From an uncultured bacterium (GTDB lineage: Bacteria > Cyanobacteriota > Vampirovibrionia > Gastranaerophilales > Gastranaerophilaceae), in assembly GCA_949298805.1 (NCBI GenBank), contig CASFXY010000003.1:1-64000 (forward strand): a stretch of DNA of 64,000 nucleotides. Direction: 5' to 3'. Under the pieces are notes generated by a model. It was not told the DNA's origin. It ran no database searches and saw only the letters and a list, made by a program, of their open reading frames with translations. Below are positions 25,068 through 28,420 of the stretch, piece by piece. Position numbers and translations under genes: made by a program. Numbering within the stretch: the first letter of the stretch is position 1; every line of letters begins with the position of its first letter.

Positions 25068-26396
25068 ATGTCAAATTTAAGCATAACAACAAGATTAATT
25101 CAGGAATTGAGCAATAACAGCGGGTCTGTCGTGCCCATAGCCGCTAAAGACACATTAAGCAATTGTGCTATTACTTATATTTACGACAAACAAGCATCAA
25201 AGGAAGATGGCAAGGAAAGAGCCATAGAGGAATTTGGTACCGAAATACTTTGGATTGGCGGTATTCCACTTCTCAAAAAACTTTTCGACAAAACTGTATA
25301 TAGGTTTTTTAAAGCTGATCCCAAGTTCGACATCAGGAATCTTAAAGAAAACTCACAAGGTAAGCTTGATAGGCTTGAGTTTTTGGCGAAAAATGCAAAA
25401 GATGCTTCACAAAAACAAATTCTTGAAAATATTTTAAATAATCCGAATTTGCAAAGATTGTATAAAAAACTCCATGTTGCAAAATTTATTGTTGCTACAG
25501 CGGCAACATTGGGCGGCTTGAGCGCACTTATTGTATATAAGCAAAAAACAACTCAAAAAGAGCTTGAAAACAAATACAAACAAAGGTTGCTTTTTGAAAA
25601 CGAGTTAAAAAATGATTTAAGTCAGCAAAAAATCTTTAGTAAATTTTTGGAAAGTAAAAAAGATGTTTCTTTTTCCGGTAATGCAGCAAAATTTTTGACT
25701 GATTTTATGTATAATCCTGTTAAAAACATGTCCATATTAGATGCGGGAATTACTGCAACAAGATTAAAAATGGGCAGAAAAGGCGAAAGATTTGAAATCG
25801 GATTTAAAGAAGCTTTTCAAATACTTTTTATATACGGATTGGCAAAGCCAATTGAAAAGGGACTTGAGAAAATAAGTAAAAAAATATTTAAAAAACCAAT
25901 CGCAAATGAATTTCAACTTTTGAGTAACGAAAAACTTGCAGATTTAATTAAATCTCCGGATTTAAAAGACTCGATTCAAACTTTTATGTCTAAAAAAGGT
26001 GACGATGCTTTGCAATACATCTTTAATCATGATAATGCCCTAATAAAAATGCTCAAGATATCGGGTGATATACCGACTATAAAGGGCTCTGACGGCATAA
26101 TTGATTCTTTTGCTCATATTGATTTGGAAAATGTCAAAAATGCCGCAGGTAATATTTTGGAGTTGCTTGATGCTTGCAAGGGCAAACCTGATGCAAATAA
26201 ATTTTTAAAACAAGTTAAAAATTACAAGGCGGCTGCGATAGTTTTAAATATATTGATAGGTGCTGCTGCAATAGGTATAGCGCAGCCAATGGTAAATATA
26301 ATTTTAAGAAAAAAGAAAAATAACGGACAAACAGCAAATCCGGCATTTAAAAATATTGAACAGGAAATGGCACAAAAGTTTGCGTTCAAAGGTTAA
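25068..26396 (+). CDS. Unknown membrane-associated protein with SFSG/FKG motifs
   Basis: A 442-residue protein of unknown function. It is mostly helical and basic. Hydrophobic segments lie at about 138-160 (VATAATLGGLSALIVY) and 390-415 (VLNILIGAAAIGIAQPMVN), with weaker ones near 60-75 and 235-250. A SFSG motif lies near residue 202, and the protein ends in FAFKG. In layout (Lys-rich, paired hydrophobic segments, F-K/S-G motif) it resembles the two proteins at 48505-50300, so all three may belong to one lineage-specific group. AAGGA precedes the ATG. The stop overlaps the convergent 26393-26629 gene. Confidence 0.75.
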   Translation: MSNLSITTRLIQELSNNSGSVVPIAAKDTLSNCAITYIYDKQASKEDGKERAIEEFGTEILWIGGIPLLKKLFDKTVYRFFKADPKFDIRNLKENSQGKLDRLEFLAKNAKDASQKQILENILNNPNLQRLYKKLHVAKFIVATAATLGGLSALIVYKQKTTQKELENKYKQRLLFENELKNDLSQQKIFSKFLESKKDVSFSGNAAKFLTDFMYNPVKNMSILDAGITATRLKMGRKGERFEIGFKEAFQILFIYGLAKPIEKGLEKISKKIFKKPIANEFQLLSNEKLADLIKSPDLKDSIQTFMSKKGDDALQYIFNHDNALIKMLKISGDIPTIKGSDGIIDSFAHIDLENVKNAAGNILELLDACKGKPDANKFLKQVKNYKAAAIVLNILIGAAAIGIAQPMVNIILRKKKNNGQTANPAFKNIEQEMAQKFAFKG

Positions 26397-26629: not shown

Positions 26630-26833
26630 TTTATTCCTTTCGCATATAGTTACATGATTTATATAATGTTTTTTATAAACAAGTCTATATTAATATTACC
26701 GAAATTGTTGCAAAAAATTAAAACAAATTTACGAAAAATCATCTGTTTGATTGGTATTTTATTATGCTAGAAATTGTTTTAAAAAAAATCTGTTAAAATT
26801 AACAAATTCATGCTAATATTTTATTAAGCATTT

Positions 26834-26857
26834 AAACAGGGATTTTTTTGCCTGTTT
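26834..26857 (+). promoter_or_regulatory. Hairpin in the rny leader
   Basis: AAACAGG (26834-26840) and CCTGTTT (26851-26857) form a 7-bp stem with a T-rich loop, about 30 nt upstream of the proposed rny start. It may act in control of rny expression; RNase Y autoregulation is a speculation. Confidence 0.4.
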
Positions 26858-26887
26858 AACTTAGGTATATATAAGAGGTACAGAACA

Positions 26888-28420
26888 ATTAATTACACAA
26901 TTTATATAGCAATTGCAGTTTTAACAATAGCGCTGATTATTTCGGTTATTTTAAATGTAAGACAAAAAACAAAACTTGAAGTATTTGGTGAGAATGAAAA
27001 AAAACTGCAAAAAGAATTTGAAGAAAAGGAAAGTTTTTTAAAAAAAGAAGCAATGATTGCTGCAAAAGAGCAACTTCATTTTGAACGTCAAAAATTTGAC
27101 GATGAAGTGCGCGAAAGACGTTCTGAAATAAATCGCCTTGAAAATTCTTTAATGAAAAAAGAAGAACAACTTGAGGACAGAGTTCAAAAAAATGTTGATA
27201 AAGAGCATGAGCTGAATAAAAAGTATGATGAACTGCTCGATAAGGAAGATTATCTGGCTGAAATCGTTGCAAAACAACTTTCAGAACTTGAACGCGTTGC
27301 TCAGATGTCGCGCGAAGAAGCTAAAAATATGCTTCTTGAGCAGTTAAAATCAGAACTTGCACAAGAACAAGTACAATTAATTCGTGAAAACGAACAAAAA
27401 ATAAGAGAAACGGCTGAAGAAAAATCAAGAGAAATACTTTCTCAAGTTATGCAAAGATGTGCTATTGAGCAAGTTATAGAATCTACAGTTTCTGTGGTTT
27501 CACTTCCTTCGGATGAAATGAAGGGAAGAATAATAGGTCGTGAAGGTAGAAATATCAGAACTCTTGAAACCTTAACGGGAGTTGATTTAATAATTGATGA
27601 TACGCCGGAAGCTGTTGTGCTTTCATCGTTTGACCCTGTCAGACGTGAAATTGCCAGACTTACAATTGAAAAACTTATAGCGGATGGCAGAATACATCCT
27701 GTCAGAATTGAAGAAGTTTACGAAAAATCTACTAAAGAGATAGAAAATAAAATGAAACAAGAGGGTGAGCGTGCAGCTCATGACCTCGGAATTATGAACC
27801 TTAACAAAGAGCTTACCAAGACTCTTGGACGCTTATATTATAGAACAAGCTATGGTCAAAATGTGCTGAAACACTCTATTGAAGTGGCGCAAATCGCCGG
27901 TATGTTGGCATCCGAATTGGGCGCTGACGTAAATCAGGCAAAGCGTGCAGGCTTGTTGCATGATATTGGTAAAGCCGTTGATCAAGAGCAGGAAGGCACC
28001 CATATTTCTCTGGGTGTTGAACTTGCAAGAAGATATGGCGAAAAAGAAGAAATAGTTCATGCAATCGAAGCTCACCATGATGACGTTCCGGCGCATACAC
28101 TTGTCGCTGCTTTGGTTAAAATAGCTGATGCTGTTAGTGCGGGCAGACCCGGTGCAAGGCGCGATACGCTTGAAATCTATATTAAACGCCTCAAAAAGCT
28201 TGAAGAAATTGCAAGCAGTTACGAGGGTATAAGGCAGTCCTTTGCAGTTCAGGCAGGTCGCGAAGTTAGGGTTGTAGTTCAGCCCAATGTTTTTGATGAC
28301 GCGGCAAGTGCTAAATTAGCTCGTGATATTGCAAAACGCATTGAGGATGAACTTGAGTATCCAGGACAAATCAGGGTTACTGTTGTCAGGGAAGCAAGAG
28401 TTACTGAAATTGCGAAGTAA
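26888..28420 (+). CDS. rny: Ribonuclease Y, probable AUU start
   Basis: Membrane-anchored endoribonuclease that starts mRNA decay. Read from ATT at 26888 the protein is 510 residues, the usual RNase Y length. It has an N-terminal transmembrane helix (about 2-24, IYIAIAVLTIALIISVIL), a long charged coiled coil (25-200), a KH domain with GRIIGREGRNIR (213-224) and an HD domain with LLHDIGKAVD (H358-D359). The first ATG in frame (27053) would remove the anchor and part of the coiled coil. No ATG, GTG or TTG lies between the in-frame stop at 26825 and 27053. AAGAGG (26873-26878) sits nine bases before ATT. ymdB follows, the usual partner. Confidence 0.93.
   Translation: MNYTIYIAIAVLTIALIISVILNVRQKTKLEVFGENEKKLQKEFEEKESFLKKEAMIAAKEQLHFERQKFDDEVRERRSEINRLENSLMKKEEQLEDRVQKNVDKEHELNKKYDELLDKEDYLAEIVAKQLSELERVAQMSREEAKNMLLEQLKSELAQEQVQLIRENEQKIRETAEEKSREILSQVMQRCAIEQVIESTVSVVSLPSDEMKGRIIGREGRNIRTLETLTGVDLIIDDTPEAVVLSSFDPVRREIARLTIEKLIADGRIHPVRIEEVYEKSTKEIENKMKQEGERAAHDLGIMNLNKELTKTLGRLYYRTSYGQNVLKHSIEVAQIAGMLASELGADVNQAKRAGLLHDIGKAVDQEQEGTHISLGVELARRYGEKEEIVHAIEAHHDDVPAHTLVAALVKIADAVSAGRPGARRDTLEIYIKRLKKLEEIASSYEGIRQSFAVQAGREVRVVVQPNVFDDAASAKLARDIAKRIEDELEYPGQIRVTVVREARVTEIAK

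Follow-up and report, generated by a model that had tools for sequence, protein, structure and literature searches.

The rny locus and its start region

The window analysed here, a stretch of 64,000 nucleotides, comes from a draft genome of the Gastranaerophilales (1.68 Mb in 32 contigs) and carries an RNase Y gene, rny, which we place at 26888..28420 on the forward strand, as are the elements of its start region described below. The product was identified by the RNase Y profile TIGR03319 (RNase_Y), which it matched with 674 bits, above the curated cut-off of 454.35. Upstream of rny, a 442-residue open reading frame on the same strand (25068-26396) had no NCBIfam match. Directly 3' of rny, the segment 28423-30091 holds a TIGR00282-like metallophosphoesterase gene (238 bits, cut-off 254) followed by a PHP-domain gene, whose best match was RNase RNM (182 bits vs a cut-off of 375). 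These two genes perhaps form an RNA-turnover cluster with rny.

The rny frame is open from 26828, directly after an in-frame TAA at 26825-26827. Scanning the sequence for open reading frames, we found no ATG, GTG or TTG between this stop and the ATG at 27053, which is codon 75 of the frame (counting from 0) and its first canonical codon. The first-pass annotation had claimed that the gene lacks a standard start upstream of 27053, and this holds. The alignment to TIGR03319 begins at profile position 4, corresponding to base 26906, and the part encoding RNase Y therefore begins well upstream of ATG 27053. Between the stop and this point lie a Shine-Dalgarno-like ribosome-binding site (RBS), AAGAGG (26873..26878), a nine-base spacer (26879..26887; here TACAGAACA) and an ATT (26888..26890). 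Translation from this ATT gives a protein of 510 residues ending at the TAA at 28418-28420, in agreement with the motif position, spacing and product length given earlier. Directly after the AUU follows the hydrophobic stretch IYIAIAVLTIALIISVIL, as judged by eye alone. We use AUH for AUU, AUC and AUA (ATH in DNA) and speak of an AUH start where a canonical start is absent at the place where the protein must begin and an AUH codon stands at normal distance from an RBS, both of which are the case for rny. The observation that rny has no standard start codon and that ATT 26888 is its best start is thus confirmed, and from the sequence the call of AUU 26888 as the start codon is very likely right.

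Further upstream, the element TGCTAATAT (26811..26819) was largely kept in the genus alignment, and the leader 3' of it varied; it may represent an extended -10 promoter element. A promoter consensus scan did not report TGCTAATAT and found 3 promoters where 3.1 were expected, i.e., no excess. The leader itself can fold into a hairpin with a 9 bp stem and a 10-base loop (26832..26859; by eye, 26832-26840 pairs with 26851-26859), and the fold had a z of -1.80, with 9 of 200 shuffles as good. A hairpin just upstream of the start, as described in the first-pass annotation, does exist, but it is not conserved: inspected by eye, the alignment shows it in just four (L003, L004, L006, and L017) of the 15 genomes of the genus, and a conserved leader hairpin was rejected.

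Conservation and history of the start codon

The AUU-start reading was checked in relatives by aligning the rny 5' ends of 15 genomes of the genus. All of them showed the same arrangement, an invariant AAGAGGT, eight variable or partly conserved bases, and ATT at the start site (15/15), while ATG was found at this site in none. The same 15 genomes were also examined for another conserved start preceded by an RBS of its own, and none was seen. In three of them an ATG lies in frame nine codons upstream, and in one a TTG lies in frame thirteen codons upstream; both codons lie 5' of the RBS and are not common to the other genomes. The 12 closest rny loci in the named collection (L020-L031), nine of them from Candidatus Gastranaerophilales and one from Candidatus Galligastranaerophilus intestinavium, were 96-99% identical in protein.

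For the order, 111 rny loci were drawn from 110 of the 202 genomes searched (G000-G201), a non-random choice made for genus coverage; loci whose 5' end is missing (such as L016, L162, and L163) were excluded. Also excluded was L018 (G005:C62), a Clostridium-like second match in G005 (7% contamination), which shows 54% identity and has the look of a foreign contig. An order-wide search for RNase Y in 192 genomes gave no match in two (G193 and G034) and a weak match in G030. The 111 5' ends divided into ATT (32), ATC (31), and ATA (9), giving 72 AUH loci with an RBS, and ATG (38) and GTG (1). Beyond the genus, the same RBS followed by ATT, ATC or ATA was thus present in 57 more loci, and AUH rny starts occur in 23 genus labels. 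The search pattern was written after the motif had been seen; it fixes the G at -5 and AT[ACT], and limits positions -6, -4, -3, -2, and -1. The loci outside this pattern are the 39 with canonical starts, none of which is placed among the AUH groups in the tree described below; for three of these rows (L154, L272, and L279) the automatic start choice is doubtful. As 39 of the 111 loci start canonically, an AUH codon is not required for rny. In a second collection, all 32 Gastranaerophilales loci (L032-L062 and L090) showed ATT (25) or ATC (7) by eye; overlap with the first set was not removed, and some may be the same genomes.

Between the in-frame stop and the AUH, a canonical codon was absent in 54 of the 72 loci and present in 18; in the eight codons 3' of the AUH canonical codons were absent in 50 loci and present in 22, and 35 loci were free of them on both sides. 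The loci free of canonical codons favour an AUH start, and those that have one count against it. The in-frame stop lay at most eight codons upstream of the AUH in 32/72 loci, and in L103 and L158 it even sits between the RBS and the ATH, two codons 5' of the latter.

Within the RBS, G was found at -11 in 70/72 and at -10 in 69/72 AUH loci. GAGGU should presumably pair with the usual anti-Shine-Dalgarno sequence; the 16S tail was searched for in the 15 genus genomes and recovered in 0/15, so that this pairing is an assumption for rny. When one locus was taken per genus label (23 in total), every position from -13 to -1 carried 1.07-2.0 bits, and between +5 and +29 the values were 0.09-0.81 bits at 22 of 25 positions. 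The spacer (order consensus TAYAGGACA, or UAY-AGG-ACA in the mRNA) is nearly as conserved as the RBS, although this conservation is partly built in, as the search pattern fixed the G at -5 and restricted -6 to -1. It was not seen before infC or ispH, the two other genes with AUH starts considered below. Its AGGA, two bases 5' of the AUH, is too close to act as the RBS of that codon; the spacer may instead serve as RBS for a downstream AUG, where one is present, or as a site for another factor.

A quick rny protein tree was built from 96 rows (62 AUH, 27 canonical, and 7 Bacillota), 89 of the 111 order loci being long enough; it left 25 forks open. AUH and canonical starts were separated by two changes on this tree, compared to a mean of 28.2 after shuffling (0 of 500 shuffles as low). 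The canonical rows are a pair of f6 genomes plus a single clade of 25 rows; this clade is nested in f1, inside which AUH is the older state. Within the AUH rows, six changes among T, C, and A were counted at the third base, and ATG appeared in 0 rows of the AUH groups. The AUH start of rny is widespread and probably old in the Gastranaerophilales; the canonical f6 pair may branch deepest, so the first state at the level of the order may have been either.

Of 117 genomes sampled from the class, 41 gave an RNase Y match, and 38 of these belong to the window's family and are full length or nearly so; 56 genomes without a match stand outside the list. Among the matches listed, only three came from outside the order, all weak and partial (42-70 residues, with 6.1e-5 as the best E). 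We therefore dropped the class's other orders as an outgroup and used Bacillota rows in their place. As RNase Y matches are nearly confined to the window's family, the gain of rny probably dates to the base of the order, to judge from this sample.

AUH starts in infC and ispH

To place rny within its genome, 864 kb (about half of the genome) were scanned. The 836 open reading frames found there, each 80 codons or longer, were screened for an AUH start that has an RBS and lacks a canonical start within 8 codons. This gave 13 mechanical AUH candidates, of which three were accepted by protein identity, namely rny, infC, and ispH; the other ten were set aside by eye for implausible N-termini and weak RBSs. 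A second, less extensive scan that used different thresholds (464 kb, 403 frames) yielded 15 candidates and the same three genes. With three AUH starts accepted among 836 frames in half of the genome, the genome is not generally lax in its start codons, and general laxity is an unlikely explanation for the start of rny.

The infC gene (L137, G000:C6:8093-8602) has an HU-like gene just upstream; rpmI and rplT were sought directly 3' of it by eye in the L137 frame listing, and none was recognised in the stretch covered. infC starts with ATT in 15/15 genus genomes. In the other rows of the order, the mechanical picks (n = 44) were ATT (19), ATA (19), ATC (5), and ATG (1); some picks have an adjoining second AUH codon (for example L212, L228, L243, L244, and L250), and in L248 the start of the contig truncates the gene. 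For 21 of the 22 genus labels that have a canonical rny, infC was mechanically assigned an AUH start. The exception is G031 (L249), where an RBS with ATT is also found. G031 carries both kinds of rny, with one copy starting at ATG and one at ATA (L141/L165); the ATG copy groups with the canonical f1 clade. Since infC keeps its AUH even beside a canonical rny, the two starts do not change in step, and the idea that both genes moved jointly to AUG was rejected. In 13 rows from other orders the mechanical infC picks (3 TTG, 4 ATT, 3 ATA, and 3 none) are unreliable, because several frames carry long N-terminal extensions.

ispH showed an apparent AUA start (AAAGGACGTGTTTTAA-ATA) with a stop directly before it in 7/7 loci from six genus genomes (L330 and L303:13974, both from the same genome, G000:C11; L319, L324, L331, L336, L338, and L343). 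In the window's genome the first canonical codon of ispH lies 62 codons in, and a canonical start near the N-terminus is also absent in several other members of the order.

A probable weak start codon and a proposed control of RNase Y

AUH codons are poor P-site partners of the initiator tRNA, and IF3 discriminates against them. We consider it likely that AUU 26888 starts rny, that this weak codon keeps RNase Y low, and that RNase Y output tracks the stringency of start-codon selection in parallel to infC. AAGAGG, nine bases upstream, would direct the ribosome to AUU 26888, where the weak codon would permit a low rate of RNase Y synthesis. Since IF3 rejects AUH in the P site, output should follow start-codon stringency: relaxed discrimination would give more RNase Y and stricter discrimination less, in the same sense as for infC. 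The position of the AUU, its RBS, its conservation and rarity, and the use of AUH in common with infC can be read from the sequences compared; that ribosomes would in fact initiate at the AUU, and do so weakly and in dependence on IF3, we infer, the dependence on IF3 from other bacteria.

E. coli pcnB, whose AUU start was reportedly described by Binns and Masters in 2002, encodes poly(A) polymerase, which acts in RNA decay. It is thus an RNA-decay gene limited by an AUU start, as is proposed for rny, although the two proteins are unrelated. According to PMC9410913, pcnB is the sole other gene of E. coli with an AUU start besides infC, in which the AUU is linked to self-regulation. S. aureus infC starts with AUA (PMC9410913 and PMC13009471). 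Both infC genes resemble rny in having an AUH start behind a good RBS, as does the infC of the window's own genome. However, infC encodes the discriminating factor itself, so that its loop is autogenous, whereas rny would be a target in trans. In S. aureus reporters, AUU or AUA gave about 10% of the AUG level in poor medium and, for ccpN, up to 30% in rich medium; ccpN (AUA) and cvfC1 (AUU) have conserved non-canonical starts that cut expression (PMC13009471). These are different genes, and their extended Shine-Dalgarno pairing was not seen by eye for rny. Among cyanobacteria, a proteogenomic study of Nostoc 7120 assigned ATA or ATT starts to eight revised genes and ATA to two novel ones (PMC8557916). 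On the precedents of E. coli and S. aureus, a weak start discriminated by IF3 may limit RNase Y and link RNA decay to initiation. In B. subtilis, RNase Y cleaves infC mRNA, and RNases Y and J1 partly control IF3 in this way, linking decay with translation (review PMC3997798); the arrow proposed here runs instead from IF3 to rny. We treat a reciprocal loop between RNase Y and infC, on the B. subtilis pattern, as no more than an idea.

In the accessible text of the open-access literature on AUU and other non-canonical starts, RNase Y, IF3, and the Gastranaerophilales, no report of an rny gene with an AUU start was found. Few genes with AUU-type starts are known, and rny would add one to this small kind, and a regulatory role of its start is plausible. 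A second RNA-decay gene carrying AUU, beside E. coli pcnB, suggests that bacteria may repeatedly have tied RNA turnover to the stringency of initiation.

The AUU might also be used without any regulatory role, setting a fixed low level or simply being tolerated given an adequate RBS, and we put the chance of this somewhat short of even. The derived clade of 25 rows, which lives with canonical starts, agrees with it. On the other side, AUH was kept in 23 genus labels while its third base switched six times between T, C, and A, and no row of the AUH groups has ATG at the site, though one change would make AUG.

A different possibility concerns g14, f2, and f5, whose classified loci have an ATG 3-4 codons 3' of the AUH. 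There the true start could be this ATG, with the AGGA of the spacer as its RBS and the AUH as an upstream or alternative start; we hold this to be possible but rather doubtful. The derived clade uses an ATG near that place, and g14 may be an intermediate. Such an ATG is absent, however, in the window's genus and in g18, g20, g23, and g22 (except L102, at +6), and the distance from AGGA to ATG would be at least 11 bases.

Initiation at ATG 27053, producing a shorter RNase Y without membrane anchor, is highly improbable. This ATG is the first canonical codon in frame and would be picked by a gene caller restricted to ATG, GTG, and TTG, but the profile match reaches back to base 26906, the conserved RBS precedes the AUU, and in other relatives the first canonical codons fall at varying places. 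Annotation limited to these three codons would truncate RNase Y and drop its likely membrane anchor. Loss of a normal start through a sequencing or assembly error, which a draft of 32 contigs might invite, is the unlikeliest explanation of all, because the other 14 genomes of the genus share the RBS and the ATT, and another 57 loci have ATH.

Returning to stringency control by the AUU, an extension of it can be offered only tentatively: IF3 and RNase Y may form one stringency-controlled group in the Gastranaerophilales, with the UAY-AGG-ACA spacer adding a second layer. As both genes start at AUH, IF3 and RNase Y, a main enzyme of RNA decay, would rise together when discrimination is relaxed, and mRNA decay would be globally coupled to the state of translation initiation. 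The spacer would then perhaps offer a second RBS, used by an AUG further downstream as in g14, or a site at which RNase Y itself binds or cleaves. For such questions the order supplies natural AUU, AUC, AUA, and AUG variants at one gene.
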